DNA of 64,000 nt from Candidatus Nitrospira nitrosa (lineage in GTDB: Bacteria; Nitrospirota; Nitrospiria; Nitrospirales; Nitrospiraceae), in assembly GCF_001458735.1 (NCBI RefSeq), contig NZ_CZQA01000008.1, positions 310,001 through 374,000 on the forward strand, read 5' to 3'. A program made the translations under genes and the position numbers. The notes under the pieces were generated by a model that had not been told where the DNA came from, did not search any database, and was given only the letters and a program-made list of their open reading frames with translations. Shown here piece after piece: positions 25,814 through 38,260 of the stretch; the first letter of the stretch is position 1, and each line of letters starts with the position of its first letter.

Positions 25814-26779
25814 TTAGTATTTCCGTAATGAGATAGGCGGGAGCTTCAATACAGCTTCGCGAGCGGCGGCCCATAAGGCCTCCATCATCGCCAAGAGATC
25901 CGGAGCCGTTCTGGCCAAGAGCTTGACGGCAAGGCCTGGTACCGGTGGGGTTGAGACGCCGCCTAATACGGCTCCTGGCTTGGTATCCAAGAGCGCAGCA
26001 ATGGTCGACTCCAATCCAGTCCAGACCTCTGGGGCCAGTGCGTCGTTCACGACGTAGAACGAGGCCACATAATCCCATTCCTCGGCCAGACCGACCACCC
26101 CTAAGTCCGTTGCCGGATCAAGGGCATATCGCTCGAGCAGCGAATTCCCGTTGGCCGTCGTGATTAGGATTTCGTTTTCCAGGTCGGTAAAGGCCCACCG
26201 TTCTCCCCTCGCAATGCGGCCTGAGGCAAGCGCATCCCACAAGAAGAGGGTTGCGCCAGGCCCAACCGTAGCCCTAAGACTCTGCCGAAACCGAGATCCG
26301 GCAAAGGGAATCGTATGCTCAGGAAACCATTCGAGAATCGCGCCGGGCTCGACCGCGATGGCGACATGCTGTTCAGATACCAGGCCTTCAGTTTGATACA
26401 CCCGGTTGGCTGAGGGAGCTGAAATGATGACATGCGCATGCTGCTCCACCGTCATATCAAGGGACAGATGGTCACCCCCAACCAGACCACCGGATGGATT
26501 GACCAGTAAGGTATAGGCAGACCCGGTATCGTCGAGATAGATAGGGGGCAGCAGTTTCCAGGGCGTAGTGAAATACGAGTGAGAGATCACCGTACGGTGA
26601 TCAAGCTTTGTGTACGTCAGCTTCAGCTCACCGACCCGTCCGACTAACTCTGTCGCAAACCGTTCAGGAGATTTTTTCTTCCGGACAGACGTACGTGTTC
26701 CAGACGATGCCCTTGGTTGAGACGTACCCGTTTTCCGAGCCGCCCGCTTCCGCTGTCCCTGCTCTGTCGGCATGGTCAT
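25814..26779 (-). CDS. ureD: Urease accessory protein UreD
   Basis: 321 residues; scaffold that with UreF and UreG loads nickel into apo-urease. The UreD core is recognisable from [24 protein letters not shown] (start of this stretch) through [44 protein letters not shown] and LLERYALDP. The first ~45 residues are polar and basic, an extension not needed by the core. Its start codon overlaps the ureG stop by four bases, so translation is coupled. It is the last gene of the urease cluster. Confidence 0.94.
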
Positions 26780-27447
26780 GAACGCTTGACTCGTTGCGGG
26801 ATGCGTTGCTCAACCCACGCCACCACCGCATCCATCCCCTCGCCGGACAGGATATTGGTGAAGGCAAAGGGAAGCTCCCCACGCATCTTACGGGCATCCC
26901 GATCCATGACGGAAAGATCTGCGCGCACATGCGGGGCCAAATCCATTTTATTGATGACGAGGAAATCAGATCGCGTGATTCCCGGTCCACCCTTCCGTGG
27001 AATTTTGTCACCACCGGACACATCAATCACATAAATGACATAGTCCACCAGTTCGGGGCTGAACGTGGCCGCAAGATTATCCCCGCCGCTTTCCAAGAAG
27101 ATCAGCTCAACATCCGGATGCCGGCGCAACAGATCATCGATGGCTTCCTGGTTATGGGATGCATCTTCACGGATCGCCGTATGGGGGCAGCCCCCTGTTT
27201 CCACACCAAGAATCCGATCGACCGGAAGTGCGGCACGCTTGGTCAGGATTTCAGCATCAATTTTTGTAAAAATATCGTTGGTCACGGCTGCAAGGCTGAA
27301 ACGATCGCGCAGCCGCTGACACAATGCTTCCACGAGCGCCGTCTTTCCCGATCCAACCGGCCCGCCAATACCAATGACCGGAATACCTTGTTTCCTCGCC
27401 TGAGTCGGAGTCCAATTGTGATTATGTTCACGATTGAGATCATGCAT
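26776..27447 (-). CDS. ureG: Urease accessory GTPase UreG
   Basis: 223-residue SIMIBI GTPase that drives nickel insertion into urease. The P-loop is [15 protein letters not shown]; the metal-binding motif is [34 protein letters not shown] and [11 protein letters not shown] are the other GTPase signatures. The N-terminus is short with three histidines ([14 protein letters not shown]), perhaps a minor nickel-binding tail. No ureE is found in the cluster, so nickel delivery to UreG must come from elsewhere. Sits 94 bases downstream of ureF. Confidence 0.97.
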
Positions 27448-27541: not shown

Positions 27542-28228
27542 TTAAGAGCGAAACAGTCTCCACTCTAGAGAGCCATGACGCATCGCATAAATATCTTGGA
27601 TAGGTGACCACGAGCTCATTGCCGTATCGAGGTCAACCTCCCGACTAATCCGTTCAATCAATGGAAGCCATTCGCTCAGGATACGCTGGCCCTCATGTTG
27701 ACCGATAGGACTCAGCCGCATCGCGGAGGAGATGAACCCCACGGCCGTTTGGTACAAGAAGGCGCCGGCGGTTTCTTCAGGATTCCAGCCACACGAACCC
27801 ATGGTAAGTCCAAACGTCACCGCGAGATGACCTGGGGCGCGATCGGCTTCTACTTCATCACGATATTCATTCAGGATCGACTTGGCTCGCATCTGATCCG
27901 CCGCGACCCTGATCACTTGTCGCCCCATCTGGCGGCTGGCCATGCGCGATTCTCGACCAAGCTTGGTCGCCTCAAGCGCTCGATCGATCTGAACCGCAAC
28001 CTGCAGCAATCCCTTCGAAGCCGCGCGATTCGCTTGCTTGACGGCAAGCACCTCCCGGCGGCTCATCCCGCCACGCAGCAGATCCTCAACATACTTGGCC
28101 AGCTGATCGGACGTCTTGACAGCCCCGCCCTGGACCGCTGCTTCCAGCCCTGAGGAAAAGGCATAGCCTCCGGATGGGAAAAACGTATCGACGAACCGTA
28201 ACCCTTCAAGCAATGCGGGGGTATTCAT
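27542..28228 (-). CDS. ureF: Urease accessory protein UreF
   Basis: 228 residues; binds UreD-urease and regulates the UreG GTPase. Family signatures are RFVDTFFPSGGYAFSSGLEAAVQ near the N-terminus (beginning of block), FGLTMGSCGWNPEETAGAFLYQ (middle part), AVGFISSAMRLSPIGQHEGQ and, at the C-terminus, the AMSSWSPIQDIYAMRHGSLEWRLFRS region (end part), where RLFRS is the usual UreF end. ATG 28228 is chosen because it gives the normal N-terminus; a longer reading to 28288 adds an unrelated 20-residue head. It lies 84 bases from ureC. Confidence 0.95.
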   Translation of the reverse strand: MNTPALLEGLRFVDTFFPSGGYAFSSGLEAAVQGGAVKTSDQLAKYVEDLLRGGMSRREVLAVKQANRAASKGLLQVAVQIDRALEATKLGRESRMASRQMGRQVIRVAADQMRAKSILNEYRDEVEADRAPGHLAVTFGLTMGSCGWNPEETAGAFLYQTAVGFISSAMRLSPIGQHEGQRILSEWLPLIERISREVDLDTAMSSWSPIQDIYAMRHGSLEWRLFRS

Positions 28229-28312
28229 GTTACACGAGGAAAAGACAACAACAGCCGGCCGACTACCGTGACAATCACTCCAAACCAATAGTCGAGCCGG
28301 CTGTCTTGTTTC

Positions 28313-30037
28313 TTAGAACAGTTGATACCGTTGAGCCAACGGCAACACAATGGCCGGCTCACAAATGAGCGGCACACCATCCGCGGTCACAACGTAGGTC
28401 TCTGGATTCACTTCCATTTTCGGAAGTGCGTCATTCAGCTTGAGATCGCGCTTGCCGATGTTCCGGCAGTTCTTGACCGCCGCCACCCGTCGCTGCAAAC
28501 CAAGCCGCTTTGGAATCTCATGATCTATAGCCGCCTGTGACAGGAAAGTGAAGCTGGTGCTCGTTAACGCACGGCCAAAAGCGCCGAACATCGGCCGACT
28601 GATGGTCGGTTCCGGTGTTGGGATGGATGCATTCGGATCACCCATCTGAGCCTGTGCGATAAATCCATTTTTCAAGACCATCTCGGGTTTTACCCCGAAG
28701 AACTCCGGCTTCCAAATCACCAGGTCCGCTATTTTCCCGACTTCTACAGAACCAACTTCATGGGCAATACCATGTGTAATGGCCGGATTGATCGTATACT
28801 TGGCCACATACCGCCTGGCACGGAAATTATCGTTCTGATCGGAGTCTCTCCCACTAACCGGCTTGAGGTGTCCCCGCTGAACCTTCATCTTATGCGCCGT
28901 TTGCCACGTTCTCGTGATGACCTCTCCGATGCGACCCATGGCCTGTGAGTCCGATGACATGATGCTGATCGCACCCATATCATGCAGGATGTCTTCCGCG
29001 GCAATGGTTTCACGTCGGATACGGGACTCAGCAAATGCGACGTCTTCCGGGATCCGTGAGTTGAGATTATGACACACGATCAACATGTCCAGATGCTCGT
29101 CCATCGTGTTGATCGTAAACGGCATCGTGGGATTCGTTGAAGACGGCAGCACATTCGGCTCTCCGCAAATCTTGATGATGTCCGGCGCGTGACCACCACC
29201 CGCACCTTCCGTGTGGAAACTGTGGATCGCTCGCCCCTTAATCGCCTTGATCGTATCTTCGATATATCCGGCTTCATTGAGTGTATCGGTGTGGATGGCG
29301 ACCTGCACATCGTAGCGGTCAGCCACGCTCAAGCAGGTATCGATGGCCTTGGGGGTTGTTCCCCAGTCCTCGTGCAGCTTCAAGCCGATCGCGCCTGCTT
29401 CAATCTGCTCGTTCAAGCCCTCGGGACGCGAGGCATTGCCCTTCCCTAAGAACCCAAGATTGATGGGAATACCTTCCGAGGCTTCCAACATCCTATGGAT
29501 GTTCCAGGGGCCAGGCGTACAGGTCGTGGCACTGGTTCCGCTTGAAGGACCCGTTCCACCACCGATCATCGTGGTCAAACCAGCCGATAACGCCTCCCAA
29601 CATTGCTGTGGGCAGATGAAATGGATGTGCGTATCCAGTCCACCAGCCGTGATGATCTTGCCTTCGCCGGAAATCGCTTCCGTTCCTGGGCCGATTTCCA
29701 TACCTGGAGTCACACCCGGCATGAGATCCGAATTGCCCGCCTTACCGATCCCGACGATCCGGCCGTCCTTAATGCCGATGTCAGCCTTGATGACGCCGGT
29801 GTAGTCAAGGATGAGGGCGTTCGTGACTACACAGTCGAGCTGCCCGCTGGCGCTGGTCGCACGAGCAGACTGCCCCATGCCATCACGAATGGTTTTTCCG
29901 CCGCCGAAAACGGCTTCTTCTCCGGGGACGGTCCGGTCTTCTTCGACTTCGATGATCAAGTCCGTATCGGCAAGCCGGACACGGTCGCCGGTCGTGGGTC
30001 CATACAGAGATGCATATTGTTTGCGTGGAATTTTCAC
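28313..30037 (-). CDS. ureC: Urease alpha subunit UreC
   Basis: 574-residue catalytic subunit that hydrolyses urea at a dinuclear nickel centre. [13 protein letters not shown] carries metal-binding histidines. [15 protein letters not shown] carries the lysine that is carbamylated to bridge the nickels. [20 protein letters not shown] holds further active-site residues. In the mobile flap the usual VCHHL appears as IVCHNL: the cysteine and the first histidine, the important catalytic one, are kept, and the second is asparagine. Its start overlaps the ureB stop by four bases. It has no signal peptide. Confidence 0.98.
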
Positions 30038-30708
30038 CGGGCGCCTCCTTTTCCAAATCCGCGATCAGCGGCGAGTCCAACAGCCTTGGCTTTGACTTTC
30101 GGATCATCCAACAACCCTTCGGTCAATCCATTCACACCCTGAGCCAGCCGGTTACCGGCAAGAGCCACGAGCGCCACCTTCTTTTCTTCGCCCGGCTCAA
30201 AGCGGACTGCCGTGCCGGCCGGAATGGCGAGCCGGAACCCGAAGGCCTGCTCGCGGTCAAACTTGAGCGCGCGGTTAGACTCGAAGAAATGGCAGTGTGA
30301 ACCGACTTGTATTGGACGATCACCCAGATTCTTGACTGTCAGGTCTTTCGTTTCCCGTCCCTTGAATACCTCGATATCACCGCCGACCGTCGTTATTTCG
30401 CCAGGGATGATCGGAGCGTTCAACTCAGCCTTGACTGCCGCAGCTAACGCTTCCCTTGTTCTCGTGGTTGCATCCTGGAGCTTCTTCTGCTTCGCCGCTC
30501 CCGCGCCACTGACCCTCGTAATCAAGGATTCATTTGCGGCAAACACCATACCAGGGTGAGCTGAATTGCTGAGGAACGACGCCGCTCCAACCCCAGCCGC
30601 CACACGTCCGCTGTTCGCGAGAAACTGGCGCCGGGACGGGCCAGCTTTCTCGGAAGCCGCTTCATTTCCAATATCCTTTCCAGGAACTTGGGGCTCGTTC
30701 ATTTTCAT
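30034..30708 (-). CDS. ureB: Urease beta subunit UreB with N-terminal Tat signal
   Basis: 224 residues, whereas UreB is normally about 100-120. The usual UreB starts only at [16 protein letters not shown] (about residue 100), and the rest ([32 protein letters not shown]) is ordinary. The extension begins with a twin-arginine signal, [18 protein letters not shown] (25-42), followed by a hydrophobic stretch and a VFAANE site that fits signal-peptidase cleavage near 57-58. A basic helical linker follows. The ATG has AAGGAG nine bases upstream, so the extension is translated. The partner subunits UreA and UreC have no signal. Either the folded urease is exported by Tat or the signal is no longer used. 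Confidence 0.93.
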
Positions 30709-30770
30709 GTCACGTCACTCCTTCTTCATGCCGGGTTGATATGCAACCCTTCGTTAAGGTTCCTACGAAT

Positions 30771-31073
30771 TTACGGAATCGGATTGTGAACGGTCACGAG
30801 CTTGGTTCCATCTGGGAACGTCCCTTCGACCTGAAAATCACGAATCATCTCCGGCACGCCGGGCATGACATCATTGCGTGACAGAAGCTTCGTCCCGTAG
30901 GTCATCAATTCCGCAACCGTTTTGCCTTCACGAATTCCTTCCAATACGGCAGCGGTCATATAGGCGACAGCCTCCGGATGGTTCAGCTTGAGACCGCGCC
31001 TCTTGCGGTCGCCCGCAACCTGCGCCGCCACATAAATCATCAGTTTGTCCTGTTCTCTCGGACTTAGACGCAT
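30771..31073 (-). CDS. ureA: Urease gamma subunit UreA
   Basis: 100 residues, the normal length of a separate gamma subunit. [20 protein letters not shown] at the N-terminus, the block [21 protein letters not shown] and the C-terminal [20 protein letters not shown] (start of region) are all typical. AGAGGAGGAGCT lies directly upstream of the ATG, a very strong ribosome site. First gene of ureABCFGD, 62 bases from ureB. A consensus promoter is seen about 120 bases upstream. UreA, B and C assemble as a trimer of trimers. Confidence 0.98.
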
Positions 31074-31395: not shown

Positions 31396-32103
31396 TCAAT
31401 TCCCCGTAGCCGACCGTGCCAACGTCACCAACATCCAGAGGCCTACCGACACGCTGGCAAGACTGGCTGCTCCCTGCACGCCCCTGAACAGTCGCTGATT
31501 GAGCGATCGTGAATAAATAACCGGAATACTGATCGTCAGACCGATCATCATCATACCGATGATCGAACCGATGCCGAAGATCAGAATCGACAAGAGTCCC
31601 GACGTCATATCGGTTGTCGTCGCAAGAATCATCAACATCAATGCCGCTGATCCGGCCAACCCGTGCGCCATCCCGATACAGAGAGGACGGATCGACTCCA
31701 CGATCCAATGCCGATGACCGTGACCTTCTTGTCGTTGATGGCTATGGAAGTGTACGTGCTGCTCGCCATCGTGCTGATGGCTGTGCACGTGCCATCGCTC
31801 CCGATAGAGTTTTCTGGCGAGCGTCCCACCGAGAATAATCAGGAGCAGGGCGACTCCCGCTTCGGCGGCCATTTCGAATTGAGCAGGAATGTGCAGTCCC
31901 CAGGCAAGCACGACCGATCCGACAAGTAGCAGCGTCAGGGTATGCCCGATTCCCCACCATAATCCAACCGCTCCCGATGCCAGGAGCGAGGGTCGCTCGG
32001 CAAGCACAGTCGACACCGCCGCAAGATGGTCGGTATCCAAGGCATGCCGGAGCCCAAGCAGGAAGCCAACCCCAAGTAAGGTCAACAATTCTGTTTCAGG
32101 CAT
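31396..32103 (-). CDS. ureH: Nickel permease of the NicO/UreH type
   Basis: 235 residues with six predicted membrane helices. The family signature for nickel/cobalt permeases, GLRHALDTDHLAAV, is in helix 1-2, and WWGIGHTLTLLLVG is the second conserved block. A cytoplasmic histidine-rich loop HVHSHQHDGEQHVHFHSHQ (about residues 104-122) is likely to gather nickel. It lies between urt and ure genes in the same orientation, so it is very likely the nickel supply for urease, perhaps compensating for the missing ureE. Other NicO-family proteins import cobalt, but the location favours nickel. Confidence 0.88.
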   Translation of the reverse strand: MPETELLTLLGVGFLLGLRHALDTDHLAAVSTVLAERPSLLASGAVGLWWGIGHTLTLLLVGSVVLAWGLHIPAQFEMAAEAGVALLLIILGGTLARKLYRERWHVHSHQHDGEQHVHFHSHQRQEGHGHRHWIVESIRPLCIGMAHGLAGSAALMLMILATTTDMTSGLLSILIFGIGSIIGMMMIGLTISIPVIYSRSLNQRLFRGVQGAASLASVSVGLWMLVTLARSATGN

Positions 32104-32514: not shown

Positions 32515-33249
32515 TTACACCGTGAGGTGCTGCCTGACCATATCGGCGCTCAGCTCGTCGCTCTTGCCCTGCGCCATCACCGCTCCTTTAGCCATAATGA
32601 CGTACTTCTCTGCCAGGCGCGCGGCAAAATGGAGGCCCTGCTCCACCAACAGAATGGCAAACCGGCGCGACTGTTTGAACCCGATGATGACGTCCTCGAT
32701 TTGGTCGACGATCGACGGCTGAATGCCTTCAGTGGGTTCATCCAGCAACAAGAGTTTAGGGCTTGAGAGGATGGCCCGCCCGATCGCCAGCTGTTGCTGC
32801 TCACCGCCACTGAGCACACCCCCAGGCCGGTGAAGAATCTGCGTCAGCTTCGGGAACAACTGATAGACCTCGTCGAACGCGTCTTTTTCGGAGACGTCTC
32901 CGCTGATGACCGGACGATTCCAATAGCCGAGCTGCAGATTTTGGTACACCGTCAAATGCGGAATGATCTCACGGCCCTGCGGAACATACGCCAACCCTTG
33001 TCGCGCCCGGAGATCCGTCCGGTCATGGGTGATCTCCACCCCATCGAACGTGATCTTGCCTCCCCGCACGGGAAGCAACCCGGTCAGCGTTTTCAGCGTC
33101 GTGGTCTTGCCGACCCCGTTTCGCCCCATAAGACACACGACTTCACCCGGGTCAATCGTAAAGGACACATTCCGGAGAATATGGCTTTCCCCGTAGTAGG
33201 CATTGACGTTCTCCAGCGTCAGCGTGACCCGTTTCGTGTCCTGTACCAT
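32515..33249 (-). CDS. urtE: Urea ABC transporter ATP-binding protein UrtE
   Basis: 244-residue ATPase of the high-affinity urea importer, LivF type. Walker A is GRNGVGKTT, the ABC signature is LSGGEQQQLAIGRA and Walker B is LLLLDEPTEGIQPS. The N-terminal LTLENVNAYYGESHILRNVS is typical of UrtE. Last gene of the urtABCDE set, 24 bases downstream of urtD. Confidence 0.95.
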   Translation of the reverse strand: MVQDTKRVTLTLENVNAYYGESHILRNVSFTIDPGEVVCLMGRNGVGKTTTLKTLTGLLPVRGGKITFDGVEITHDRTDLRARQGLAYVPQGREIIPHLTVYQNLQLGYWNRPVISGDVSEKDAFDEVYQLFPKLTQILHRPGGVLSGGEQQQLAIGRAILSSPKLLLLDEPTEGIQPSIVDQIEDVIIGFKQSRRFAILLVEQGLHFAARLAEKYVIMAKGAVMAQGKSDELSADMVRQHLTV

Positions 33250-33273
33250 GCGTCACCCCACTCCTTTTCTCGA

Positions 33274-34038
33274 CTAATGGGCGACTTTTGCCCGTCCAAG
33301 GTAGATGGCGCGGACGTGTTCATCCGCTTGCACGGTTTCGACCGTGCCTTCGCACACGACCGTCCCTTCAGCCAGCACGGTGACGATGTTCGCGATCTGT
33401 CTCACAAAGTCCATGTCATGCTCGATCACGACGATCGCTTGTTTCCCCGAGAGTTTCGTCAGTAACTGACCGGTCTGCTCCGTTTCCTTGTCGCTCATGC
33501 CGGCCACTGGCTCATCAACGAGGAGGAGAGATGGATCCTGCAAGATCACCATCCCGATCTCCAACCATTGCTTCTGCCCGTGCGATAAGGAACCGGCGCG
33601 ATCATGGGCATGCTCCATCAATCCAATGGTTTCCAACGTCTCATCAATCCGTTCACGTTCCGCAGGAGTCGACCGTCCCATCAAGGTCGGAAATACGCCC
33701 TTGCTCGCTCGCTTGACCGACAAATCTAAATTCTGCCACACGGACAAGTTGGCATAGATGGATGGGGCTTGGAACTTCCGTCCCACGCCGAGCTTCGTGA
33801 TGTCCTCCGCATTCTTGCCGACCAGATTGATCCCGTTCCCGAACAGGACCTTGCCCGACGTCGGCTTGGTTTTCCCACAGATCACATCCAGCAAGGTGGT
33901 CTTGCCGGCCCCGTTGGGACCAATCACGACACGGAGCTCGTTGTAATGGACGCTAAAGTTGCAATTGTTCAACGCCTTGAATCCGTCATAATCCATGACG
34001 ACGTTTTGGCAGTTCAGAATCAGATTGTCGTCCGTCAC
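33274..34038 (-). CDS. urtD: Urea ABC transporter ATP-binding protein UrtD
   Basis: 254-residue LivG-type ATPase. Walker A is GPNGAGKTTLLDVICGKTKP, the signature is LSHGQKQWLEIGM and Walker B is LLLVDEPVAGMSDKE. The H-loop is VIEHDMDFVRQIA. The replacement of the usual Gly-Gly in the signature by His-Gly (LSHGQ) is common in UrtD. The start overlaps the urtC stop by four bases. Confidence 0.95.
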   Translation of the reverse strand: MTDDNLILNCQNVVMDYDGFKALNNCNFSVHYNELRVVIGPNGAGKTTLLDVICGKTKPTSGKVLFGNGINLVGKNAEDITKLGVGRKFQAPSIYANLSVWQNLDLSVKRASKGVFPTLMGRSTPAERERIDETLETIGLMEHAHDRAGSLSHGQKQWLEIGMVILQDPSLLLVDEPVAGMSDKETEQTGQLLTKLSGKQAIVVIEHDMDFVRQIANIVTVLAEGTVVCEGTVETVQADEHVRAIYLGRAKVAH

Positions 34039-35168
34039 GCTGCGGTACTCCCTTCCGCTTTGATCAACGGTGCTGGGGTCTTTTTTCGCTCGGTCAATTT
34101 CCTGATCATCCCGAGAAGCCCGTCCGGAAACATGGTCACCACAATCACAAAGAGCCCCCCGAGGATAAACGGCCAGGCCTCCGGGAAATAGTTCGTTAAG
34201 ACACTGCGGCCATAGTTGACGGCCACCGCCCCCAAGATCGCCCCAATCAGTGTCCCGCGCCCACCAACCGCCACCCAGATCACCACTTCCAGCGACGGCA
34301 AGACCCCGATCTGAGCCGGGGTGATGATGCCGACCTGCGGCACATAGAGCATTCCTGATAGCCCCGCGAGCCCGGCTGCCACGACAAACACGAACAGCTT
34401 GAACATCCAGGGCGTGTATCCTGAAAAGGTCACACGTGATTCACTATCTCGTATGGCAATCAACACCTTCCCCGCTCGTGATGCGACAATCCATCGACAG
34501 AAGAGATAGGCCGCGCCCAGGGCCAACACGGTCATGATGTACAACCACCGTTGCGTCGAGGGATCGGACAGCCGGTAGCCCAACAACTGCTTGAAATCCG
34601 TCAGTCCGTTGGTTCCACCAAGTCTGGTCTCATTCCGGTTGAACACCAGCCAGGCCGCAAACGCCAAGGCCTGCGTGATAATGGCAAAGTACACACCCTT
34701 GATCCTGCTGCGAAACGCGAGAAACCCAAATATCGTCGCGAACAGGACAGGAACAAGAATCGCTCCCAAGAGAGCACCGGCAAAACTCTTGAACGGATAC
34801 CAAAAAAACGGCAGTTCCTTGACCTGCGTCCACACCATGAAGTCTGGGAGCTCACTGCCATAGACGCTCTCTTTCCCGATCTGCAGCGCCAGATACATCC
34901 CCATGCAATAGGCGCCGAACCCGAAAAAGACACCCTGGCCCATGCTGAGCACACCGCAATAGCCCCAGATCAGGTCGAGCCCAAGCGCGAGAATGGCAAA
35001 ACAGAGAAACTTGCCGAATTGATTCAATCGAAAGTCCGAGAGATAGAGCCAGGAATCTTCGCTAGGCAACACATTCAATACAGGCAAGACGACCAACAAC
35101 ACGAACCCTGCGACATAAAAGGATAACGTTTCGCGGTTGTTTTGGTGAGTGACCACTGGTTCAGGCAT
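34035..35168 (-). CDS. urtC: Urea ABC transporter permease UrtC
   Basis: 377-residue LivM-type permease with about ten membrane helices. LGLDLIWGYCGVLSMGQGVFFGFGAY (part) and the cytoplasmic EAA-like loop around SRAGKVLIAIRDSESRVTFSGY are the characteristic blocks. ATG 35168 is chosen: it overlaps the urtB stop by eight bases and has GAAAGGA ten bases upstream. The ATG at 35192 is possible but gives a longer overlap. Confidence 0.94.
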   Translation of the reverse strand: MPEPVVTHQNNRETLSFYVAGFVLLVVLPVLNVLPSEDSWLYLSDFRLNQFGKFLCFAILALGLDLIWGYCGVLSMGQGVFFGFGAYCMGMYLALQIGKESVYGSELPDFMVWTQVKELPFFWYPFKSFAGALLGAILVPVLFATIFGFLAFRSRIKGVYFAIITQALAFAAWLVFNRNETRLGGTNGLTDFKQLLGYRLSDPSTQRWLYIMTVLALGAAYLFCRWIVASRAGKVLIAIRDSESRVTFSGYTPWMFKLFVFVVAAGLAGLSGMLYVPQVGIITPAQIGVLPSLEVVIWVAVGGRGTLIGAILGAVAVNYGRSVLTNYFPEAWPFILGGLFVIVVTMFPDGLLGMIRKLTERKKTPAPLIKAEGSTAA

Positions 35169-36741
35169 CAGCGTTGCGTCCTTTCGCGGCAAACAGGCCT
35201 TGCGGTCGCCATTGCAGGAATAAAATCACACCCACCAAGATAAAGACTTTTCCATAGACCGCTCCGCTGACCGGTTCAATCAATTTGTTCAGCCCGCCGA
35301 TTCCCAACGAAGCCCAGATGGTTCCGGCCAGTTTTCCGACTCCACCCGTCACCACGACCATGAAAGCATCGACGATATAGTTCTGCCCGAGTCCGGGATC
35401 GACATTTCCCACCATCGTCAGCGCCCACCCTGCGATACCAGCCAATCCAGACGCGAAGGCAAATGTGTACGAATCGACTTTTCTGGTCGGAATACCGAGA
35501 CACGCACTCATGTTGCGATTTTGTGTGACGGCTCTTACGCGAACCCCAAGATTGGATCGGAACAAGAGGAAATAGATCCCGAGGACACAGATGATCGACA
35601 GAATGATGATAAAAATTCGGTTAAAGGGAAGATACACCCCAACCATGACTTGCACTCCGCCTCGCAAGGCTTGTGGGGCAATGACAGCGGTCAAATCACC
35701 GAAGTACACACGAGCCGCCTGCATCAGGATTAAGCTCACACCCCAGGTTGCCAAGAGAGTTTCGAGCAGTCGCCCATAGAGAAAACGAATCACGGTGGCT
35801 TCCAGCACTAATCCGAACAGGGCAGCCGACAAAAACGCGACGGGCAAGGCCACGGGGAAATACCAATCGAAGCTCTCTGGAGAAAACCAGGCGATGAACG
35901 CCTGTTGGGTCACAAACGTGGCATAGGCTCCCACCATCATTAACTCGCCGTGCGCCATGTTGATGACGCCCATCAAGCCGAAGACGATGGCTAACCCCAG
36001 AGACATGATCAAGAGAATAGAGCTGAGGCTGATGCCTCGGAACAATGTTTCAACGGCACCTGCCCACCAACTCCAGGAATCGATTTGTCCGATGGACGCT
36101 TGGGCTGAATCCGCCAAGGCTCGCTGTTGCTCGGTAGCTCCACTTTGCGTTCCTGCTTCCAACAATTCCTTGAGCGCCGACAGCCCATTCTGACTCCTGA
36201 GTTCTCCGAGTTTCTTGACGGCTGACAGTTTGACGGCATGATCCTCAGACCGAAGCTGGATCAGCTGGGCAGACTCCTCCATCGTATACTTGACCCACCA
36301 CACCTGTTCCTTTGCCGCAGCCTCTTCAAGCCATGTAGTGGCCTCCGGCCGGCCGGTGCCCACTAGATCTGCGGCGGCGGAGCGTCTGGTATCCGCCTGT
36401 TCACTGGTCAGATTTGCATGGTTCTTAAGCAGATCGATGACCGGCTTAATGGCTTGCCGAGTAGCCCGATCAGCCTCGGCACGAATCTCATCGAGTTTAG
36501 GCAGGAGACTGGCATCTCCTTTTTCAATGAGAAATGCCGCCGCCGCGCTCCGGACTGCCGCATCTTCACTCTTGATATCAATGAGCGCTTGTTCAATTGG
36601 ATTGGCCGGCGAAACCAACCCTAAGGCGGCAGAGGGCACCCCATCGGCAGCCAGTGTTGACGTGGAGAGAATACCTATCGGGAGGATGGCCGAAAGAGCG
36701 AGTGTAAAGACATATTTCGAGACAGGGTCCAGACCTATCAC
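35161..36741 (-). CDS. urtB: Urea ABC transporter permease UrtB
   Basis: 526 residues. UrtB differs from LivH by a long exported N-terminal domain, seen here as a signal peptide followed by HEAT-like alpha repeats (about residues 40-205). The permease half then carries GLAIVFGLMGVINMAHGELMMVGAYA (part), a MLVGV-type core and RAVTQNRNMSACLGIPTRKVD. The start is placed at a GTG (36741) or adjacent TTG because AAGGAGGT lies five to eight bases before them. A reading from a TTG at 36768 would put that ribosome site inside the gene. Confidence 0.93.
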   Translation of the reverse strand: MIGLDPVSKYVFTLALSAILPIGILSTSTLAADGVPSAALGLVSPANPIEQALIDIKSEDAAVRSAAAAFLIEKGDASLLPKLDEIRAEADRATRQAIKPVIDLLKNHANLTSEQADTRRSAAADLVGTGRPEATTWLEEAAAKEQVWWVKYTMEESAQLIQLRSEDHAVKLSAVKKLGELRSQNGLSALKELLEAGTQSGATEQQRALADSAQASIGQIDSWSWWAGAVETLFRGISLSSILLIMSLGLAIVFGLMGVINMAHGELMMVGAYATFVTQQAFIAWFSPESFDWYFPVALPVAFLSAALFGLVLEATVIRFLYGRLLETLLATWGVSLILMQAARVYFGDLTAVIAPQALRGGVQVMVGVYLPFNRIFIIILSIICVLGIYFLLFRSNLGVRVRAVTQNRNMSACLGIPTRKVDSYTFAFASGLAGIAGWALTMVGNVDPGLGQNYIVDAFMVVVTGGVGKLAGTIWASLGIGGLNKLIEPVSGAVYGKVFILVGVILFLQWRPQGLFAAKGRNADA

Positions 36742-36789
36742 CAAGATGACCTCCTTACAGGACAGCAACAGTCGGTACAGATCCGGAGA

Positions 36790-36889: not shown

Positions 36890-38260
36890 TTATTTCTTTT
36901 GATAGGTCCCTTGATGACTGATCCAGTCGCAACCCTTTTCCGGGTTCGTATACTCACTCCAGGGTTCAGGCTTGACGAGCCCTTTGGACCGGTGAACAAC
37001 CTTAAATTGGCCGTTTTTCAAAATCTCACCGATCAGCACCGGTTTGTGGGTATGCTGGTTGCAGCAATCCATCATGATTTCCCCACCCGGTGCCAGGAAC
37101 TTCTGGTTGTACACCGCCGCACGCACCTTATCGACTTCGATTGAGCCGGCCTTCTCAACCGCCTGCTTCCACACATACACGCCGAAATAGGCCGCCTCCA
37201 TCGGATCGTCCGTCACCCGATTCTCGCCATCCGGCAGATTGTTCTTCTTGCAATAGGCTTTGAAGCTCGTCACAAACTTCTTGTTCTGCGGCGTGTCCAC
37301 GCTCTGATAGTAATTCCAGGCGGCCAAATGCCCGACGAGTGCACTGGTATCCATGCCGCGCAGTTCGTCTTCCGCCACGCTGAACGCCATGATCGGGGCA
37401 TCTTCCGCACGCAAGCCCTGGTTGCCGAATTCCTTATAGAACGGGACATTGCTGTCCCCGTTGATGGTACTGATGACCGCCGCCCCTCCACCGGCGGCAA
37501 ACTTCTTAATCTTGCCGCAAATGGTTTGATAGTCCTGGTGGTGGAACGGGGTATATTCTTCCTCGATATTGGCGGCAGAGACCTTCTTGGCCAACAGCAT
37601 CGCACGAAGAATTTTGTTGGTCGTGCGCGGATAGACATAGTCTGTCCCGAGCAGGTAGAACTTCTTGTAGCCGCCCCCTTCGGGACTCATCAAGTATTCG
37701 ACCGCCGGCGCCGCCTGCTGATTGACGGCCGCCCCGGTGTAGAACACATTTCGGGAGCACTCTTCGCCTTCGTATTGGACGGGATAGAAGAGCATCCCAT
37801 TATTCTTTTCGAAGACCGGCAGCACCGATTTGCGGCTGACTGAGGTCCAGCAGCCGAACACCACCGAGACTTTATCTTCGAGGAGTAACTGCTTGGCCTT
37901 TTCTGCGAAGAGATCCCAATTCGAGGCCGGATCGACGACTTTGGCCTCAACCTGCCGACCCATCACACCGCCCGCCTTATTGATCTCCTCCACCGCCATC
38001 AAGACGACATCGCGGAGCGAGACTTCGCTGATCGCCATCGTGCCGCTCAAGGAATGCAGGATCCCGATCTTAATCGGTGGGCCACCGGCCGCGTAAGACA
38101 GCGCATAGTTGCCCAGGTTCCCTAATAGCGCCGCCACGCCGACTCCGGCCGCGACTCTCCCGCTCCGTCCAAGAAACTCTCTTCTCGACGACCCAGTCTG
38201 TTCCGTAGTGGCAGTGGCTTTTTTGATGCCTGGTACATCTTGAGGCAGGGTTTTGTCCAT
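36890..38260 (-). CDS. urtA: Urea ABC transporter substrate-binding protein UrtA
   Basis: 456 residues. A Tat signal, [20 protein letters not shown] (24-43), directs it to the periplasm; the Live-type periplasmic binding fold follows with PPIKIGILHSLSGTMAISE, GCWTSVSRKSVLPVFE, EGEECSRNVFYTGAA and LLGTDYVYPRTTNKILRA. These blocks match the UrtA/AmiC-type urea and short amide binders. AAGGAGTGATGCAAC precedes the ATG. It is first in urtABCDE. The signal resembles that of UreB in the same region. Confidence 0.96.
   Translation of the reverse strand: MDKTLPQDVPGIKKATATTEQTGSSRREFLGRSGRVAAGVGVAALLGNLGNYALSYAAGGPPIKIGILHSLSGTMAISEVSLRDVVLMAVEEINKAGGVMGRQVEAKVVDPASNWDLFAEKAKQLLLEDKVSVVFGCWTSVSRKSVLPVFEKNNGMLFYPVQYEGEECSRNVFYTGAAVNQQAAPAVEYLMSPEGGGYKKFYLLGTDYVYPRTTNKILRAMLLAKKVSAANIEEEYTPFHHQDYQTICGKIKKFAAGGGAAVISTINGDSNVPFYKEFGNQGLRAEDAPIMAFSVAEDELRGMDTSALVGHLAAWNYYQSVDTPQNKKFVTSFKAYCKKNNLPDGENRVTDDPMEAAYFGVYVWKQAVEKAGSIEVDKVRAAVYNQKFLAPGGEIMMDCCNQHTHKPVLIGEILKNGQFKVVHRSKGLVKPEPWSEYTNPEKGCDWISHQGTYQKK

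Follow-up and report, generated by a model that had tools for sequence, protein, structure and literature searches.

A Tat-type leader on the urease subunit UreB of Candidatus Nitrospira nitrosa and its likely origin from the neighboring urtA gene

An Extended UreB in a Urea Importer and Urease Cluster

The genes described here lie in a 64,000-nucleotide stretch of contig NZ_CZQA01000008.1 of Candidatus Nitrospira nitrosa (assembly GCF_001458735.1, positions 310,001 to 374,000), hereafter the window. They follow the order urtABCDE, a NicO-type gene, ureA, ureB, ureC, ureF, ureG, and ureD (Table 1), and the presence of ureA, ureB, and ureC with accessory genes in one cluster identifies the enzyme as a UreABC urease. 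Three-subunit bacterial ureases of the Klebsiella type are cytoplasmic. The window's urease shares with them the UreB core, UreA, UreC, and the accessory genes ureDFG, whereas its UreB carries 99 extra residues that include a Tat-type leader.

Table 1. Features of the cluster, with positions in the window
Feature	Position	Strand	Evidence
urtA, urea ABC transporter substrate-binding protein	36890..38260	-	TIGR03407 566 bits, over cut-off
urtA 5' end, Tat leader residues 1-58, likely source of the ureB leader	38087..38260	-	
urtE, urtD, urtC, urtB, remaining urea importer	32515..36768	-	ORFs; named by eye and by position; same order in related loci
NicO-type gene between urtE and ureA	31396..32103	-	PF03824 29.7 bits, cut-off 27.7
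ureA, urease gamma subunit, without leader	30771..31073	-	profile matches
Ribosome site AAGGAG, 9 nt 5' of ureB ATG	30718..30723	-	sequence; same kind of site 5' of urtA
ureB, 224 residues including Tat leader; coordinates include stop codon	30034..30708	-	ORF, translation, Urease_beta match; ATG start
ureB Tat leader, residues 1-57, predicted cut VFA/ANES	30538..30708	-	invariant residues, selection profile, match to UrtA only
Codons of twin arginines R26 R27 in ureB	30628..30633	-	
ureB linker, residues 58-99	30412..30537	-	codon table, internal-start scan
Canonical UreB, residues 100-224	30037..30411	-	Urease_beta match, 1fwa_B alignment
ureC, urease alpha subunit, without leader, overlaps ureB stop	28313..30037	-	TIGR01792 963.8 bits, cut-off 680
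ureF, accessory protein, start codon uncertain	27542..28288	-	profile match
ureG, accessory GTPase, CobW/HypB/UreG domain	26776..27447	-	profile match
ureD, accessory protein	25814..26779	-	profile match

An earlier note on this DNA had described ureB as a canonical sequence beginning only at about residue 100, preceded by a Tat-type leader with a cleavage site and by a ribosome site ahead of the extended start, and each of these elements is borne out. Urease_beta (PF00699) covers residues 102-198 (137.7 bits, cut-off 25), TIGR00192 scores 139.8 bits (cut-off 90.3), and residue 1 of the urease beta chain 1fwa_B aligns to residue 100. The leader features SRRQFL at residues 25-30 and, after R35, a run of 24 uncharged residues ending in VFAAN just before E60. 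An AlphaFold2 model of the protein had a mean pLDDT of 44.9 and was not used as evidence. The nearest named record (96%) belongs to Nitrospira sp. UW-LDO-01, which the available part of a paper on Ca. Nitrospira nitrosa (PMC5596200) treats among its comammox genomes.

As in a Tat hitchhiker complex, the partner subunits have no signal of their own: neither UreA nor UreC matched a Tat model among the families listed (the best 25 of 34 for UreC), and none was seen by eye. UreD, UreF, and UreG likewise gave no Tat-model match. The genome (4.42 Mb, 15 contigs) encodes one UreB, one UreC, and two TatC proteins, so its only urease bears the tag. Since it also carries AmoA, AmoB, and AmoC, the organism is very likely an ammonia oxidizer.

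Separately, Rfam model RF02514 (5_ureB_sRNA) matches the plus strand at 29597-29892, antisense to ureC, with 101.7 bits; this match most likely reflects ureC coding similarity.

Distribution of the Leader

Of the family's 175 genomes, 118 contain UreB, with 123 matches in total. The N-terminus was read at every match: the window's own and 122 others, the latter from 130 rows that included 5 repeats and 3 rows from beyond the family. In three of the genomes the N-terminus is cut off by a contig end (G013, G148, and G163), which leaves 115 readable. This comparison, which the earlier note had proposed, locates the Tat leader in 23 genes from 22 of the 115 genomes, all within the window's genus; one genome, G124, has two such clusters. 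Two further loci flagged as Tat-like by script (L090 and L196) were rejected on reading, because their arginines precede the likely start or belong to a Lys-rich tail. An assembly artefact or a wrong start is ruled out by the recurrence of the leader in 23 genes of 22 genomes, including the single-contig genome G115.

UreB lacks the leader in the remaining 93 readable genomes. These proteins resemble the window's in the type of cluster and in the related end of the linker (...SLAAxIKAEL.P.IPGE), whereas in place of the leader most feature a short Lys-rich N-terminal tail of approximately 30 residues (MPKKTKR..., MKKKTKAKQ...; L063-L092, L120-L198). Some have neither, e.g. L064, L065, L080, L129, and L136. 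In one locus (L191, genome G143) UreA and UreB sequence share an open frame, which may be a natural fusion of the two or the result of a deletion in the assembly.

Across the phylum, UreB was found in 101 of the 395 genomes drawn, 25 of them outside the family. The three N-termini read among these 25, including the only two frames longer than 200 aa, have no signal; in the other 22 genomes the open frames do not exceed 186 aa, which is too short for the leader-linker-UreB layout. Five loci read among 22 listed from other phyla also lack the leader.

The genomes with the leader almost all carry amo genes, with AmoA or AmoC in 21 of 22. A provisional view that the leader is not linked to ammonia oxidation, which arose because AmoA is missing in 8 of the 22, was dropped once AmoC was found in 7 of those 8 (in G072 as fragments only); G083 has none of AmoA, AmoB, and AmoC. 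By hand count, fragments included, AmoA or AmoC is also present in 29 of 37 UreB-bearing leaderless genomes of the window's genus, so ammonia oxidation does not need the leader and an association cannot be asserted outside a single lineage. The presence of amo in the Tat genomes is a fact about that lineage rather than a statistic. It suggests, but falls short of showing, a periplasmic urease that would feed ammonia monooxygenase (AMO).

The Leader Is Conserved Like a Signal Peptide

Tat signals follow the consensus S/T-R-R-x-F-L. Near the N-terminus of all 23 proteins of the clade we found SRR[QE]FL, and the twin arginines, the F, the L, and Ala57 (position -1 of the predicted cut) are invariant. 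The cut site itself occurs as VFA, AFA, AYA, SFA, VHA, or AHA, so that the uncharged stretch, 24 residues in the window's UreB, leads to small residues at both relevant positions, with A, V, or S at -3 and Ala at -1 in 23 of 23.

Pairwise dN/dS among the 23 genes was 0.42 in the n-region, 0.09 in the RR and h-region, 0.20 in the c-region, 0.11 in the linker, and 0.06 in the core, ratios that are rough since synonymous differences are high (pS 0.47-0.60). The ranking of the regions matches that of signal peptides that are in use, and purifying selection acts on the leader. The NCBI model TIGR01409 matches 20 of the 23 clade members at E<=0.5 (best 0.0024); for the window it scores UreB at 14.9 bits and UrtA at 16.5, each slightly below the curated cut-off (16.7). 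The interpretation in the earlier note is partly supported, as regards a real, selected leader in a genome with two TatC genes.

The Leader Likely Derives from urtA

When residues 1-60 of UreB were compared with the whole genome, the only match besides UreB itself was UrtA (E 2.4e-8); the next (E 0.79) has a stop inside. The corresponding DNA match spans both the ribosome site and the leader, with a score of 26 where 300 single-base shuffles never exceeded 15, and in a related locus (L102) the similarity of ureB to urtA reaches 36 nt upstream of the start codon, with E-values that refer to a tiny set. UreB and UrtA of the same cluster have a near-identical leader and ribosome site; beyond the leader the proteins have nothing in common, UrtA being a solute-binding protein that is expected to reside in the periplasm.

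In a tree of 49 leaders (23 UreB, 26 UrtA), those of UreB group together as a single clade (100/100), which is nested within a set of 20 UrtA leaders from the window's genus. Six UrtA leaders fall outside this joint cluster, four from other genera and two from the window's genus (G054 and G055). Given the midpoint rooting and a long-branch warning from the program, capture from urtA by ureB is the likely direction rather than a proven one. This direction is also economical, because the motif is present in 26 of the 28 urtA genes retrieved (the remaining two begin at contig ends) and absent from most UreBs. The UreC tree groups the 22 Tat rows used into a single clade (SH-aLRT 94; L116 was omitted as too short); on this tree one of the two G124 clusters (L112, G124:C101) branches first. 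The gap between ureA and ureB measures 47-54 nt in 12 of 13 non-Tat loci (542 nt in G055), and that between ureA and the leader 61-202 nt in Tat loci, wider as expected after an insertion. A single capture of the urtA leader by ureB is the simplest reading of these data, and the likely origin of the leader from the neighboring urtA is a new finding.

A Putative Internal Start and Solitary ureB Copies in Sister Lineages

In 16 of the 23 clade genes, the linker holds an in-frame AGGAGG-7nt-ATG at codon 73/74. The codons of this site read Gly-Gly-Ala-Lys-Met, and in 16 of 16 such genes (those encoding KMKK) both glycines are GGA, so that the AGGAGG occupies two of only three fixed-codon Gly columns among 24. 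The same kind of AGGAGG-ATG site is present in 1 of 169 copies of neighboring genes, some of them partial. Synonymous shuffling of a gene produces AGGAGG at this place in 4-33% of draws, so that any one gene is of little evidential value; the weight lies in the 16 of 16, the glycine columns, and the rarity among neighbors; the genes are related and do not amount to 16 independent cases. Because the true ureB start of the non-Tat locus L134 looks alike (AGGAGGAGGCCA-ATG), the internal site may be the old ureB start, either a fossil or still used. The site is a new observation, and it could yield a second, cytosolic UreB from these 16 genes.

The window's ureB has no internal start with a Shine-Dalgarno match, reading GGA GCG GCG AAG CAG at this site, and so lacks the combination expected of dual targeting that is present in the 16. 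It is one of six genes with CAG or CAA in place of the ATG; L112, which is also without part of the linker, has no internal start either.

Three genomes that possess a Tat ureB also have a solitary ureB without Tat leader and with no ureA or ureC nearby (L126:2892-3434, L127:7898-8338, and L128:264-746). Their DNA similarity to the Tat ureB begins near the cut site in L126 (nt 175) and L127 (nt 161), and at nt 216 in L128. The L126 and L127 copies keep an AGGAGG-type site ahead of that ATG, and L126 has more in-frame starts further upstream. By eye, the L126 and L127 copies adjoin deoxyhypusine-synthase-like and LOG-like genes, and that of L128 a gene resembling a pyruvoyl-dependent arginine decarboxylase. 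A search of the window's genome for the neighbor gene of the solitary ureB gave no match. The possibility raised in the earlier note that urease is made in both places hence receives support from sister lineages, through the internal start and the signal-less second ureB, and none from the window's genome, which has neither.

A Proposed Route to a Partly Periplasmic Urease

We consider it moderately probable that ureB took the urtA 5' end once, that the leader is a working Tat signal, and that part of the UreB-containing urease is exported, with urea hydrolysis taking place in the periplasm as well. In this proposal the ribosome site, Tat leader, and cut site of urtA would have passed to ureB in a single event, in an ancestor within the window's genus and, most simply, one already oxidizing ammonia. 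UreABC would then be built and nickel-loaded in the cytoplasm by UreDFG, and part of the UreB-containing urease, as at least one alpha-beta-gamma protomer, would be exported by Tat and freed by signal peptidase, to split urea on the side of the membrane where AMO is thought to take its ammonia. The data show the gene, the leader with its conservation and selection, the resemblance of the leader to urtA alone, and its clade, and from these we infer the direction and singleness of the capture, the export, its passenger, its partial extent, and its benefit. Export of a UreB-containing urease is our best reading because the Tat leader is real and selected and two TatC proteins are present. In Tat hitchhiker complexes such as [NiFe]-hydrogenase, one signal serves the partner subunits as well. 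Here too a single subunit of a metal enzyme is tagged, and by this principle it is plausible that the UreB signal would carry UreA and UreC.

The conflict with the UrtABCDE importer that the earlier note had foreseen persists. The importer is kept, and on another contig of the window's genome (C9) an arginase-family gene, by eye a guanidinase, follows a permease-like gene (L199:22-2376); it is a likely source of urea inside the cell. A scan of L199 and L200, which left out the stretch before the permease, found no guanidine riboswitch. From the kept importer and the guanidinase-like gene beside a permease, we argue that some urease stays inside the cell. For most of the clade, a tentative scheme, possible although we would not lean toward it, is that full-length UreB is exported by Tat while the internal start, probably the old ureB start, gives cytosolic UreB, and one operon would serve both cytoplasmic assimilation and the periplasmic supply of ammonia to AMO; the window's subgroup (6 of 23) would have given up the internal start and would rely on the exported form or on incomplete export.

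A genuine leader may also have negligible consequences. If urease assembles too fast or is too large for export, the most that the leader would do is tether it near UrtBC, on the cytoplasmic side of the membrane. A full urease, with three alpha-beta-gamma units totaling about 250 kDa, is large for Tat, which counts against export; the retention of the importer, the likely internal urea source, and accessory proteins UreD, UreF, and UreG encoded without a Tat-model match are consistent with the same outcome. However, the cut site is kept along with the twin arginines, with A57 in 23 of 23 genes, and would be needless for a mere tether; we regard negligible export as rather unlikely. Export of UreB alone, without UreA and UreC, for some other purpose or as a by-product, would accord with a leader found on UreB only and with the solitary ureB genes of three relatives, but UreB is normally part of a complex and those solitary copies are the ones without a leader, and we judge this improbable. 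That the leader is not made at all, translation really starting downstream, is highly improbable: the strong AGGAGG and ATG within 16 sister genes would allow it there, whereas the window's gene offers no comparable start, and its leader has a ribosome site of its own and is under selection at the protein level.

Implications

Passages in two recent papers call nitrifier urease cytoplasmic, among them PMC11410670 (2024), which speaks of cytoplasmic ureases. PMC13109103 (2026) suggests urease products as a periplasmic buffer, in passages that do not place the enzyme itself there. Among open-access titles and passages, supplements excluded, we found no report of a Tat-tagged or periplasmic urease, and the exact phrase "periplasmic urease" and related phrases gave 0 matches in the open-access literature; an earlier report elsewhere is possible.

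UreB offers a clear case of a protein whose destination seems to have changed when its gene acquired the leader of a cluster neighbor. Nitrifier urease is treated as cytoplasmic, and accounts of urea-fed nitrification and cross-feeding build on import with subsequent release. Were part of the enzyme periplasmic, these ammonia oxidizers would be able to use urea that had not been imported, with ammonia arising directly at the place where AMO works and within reach of neighbors.
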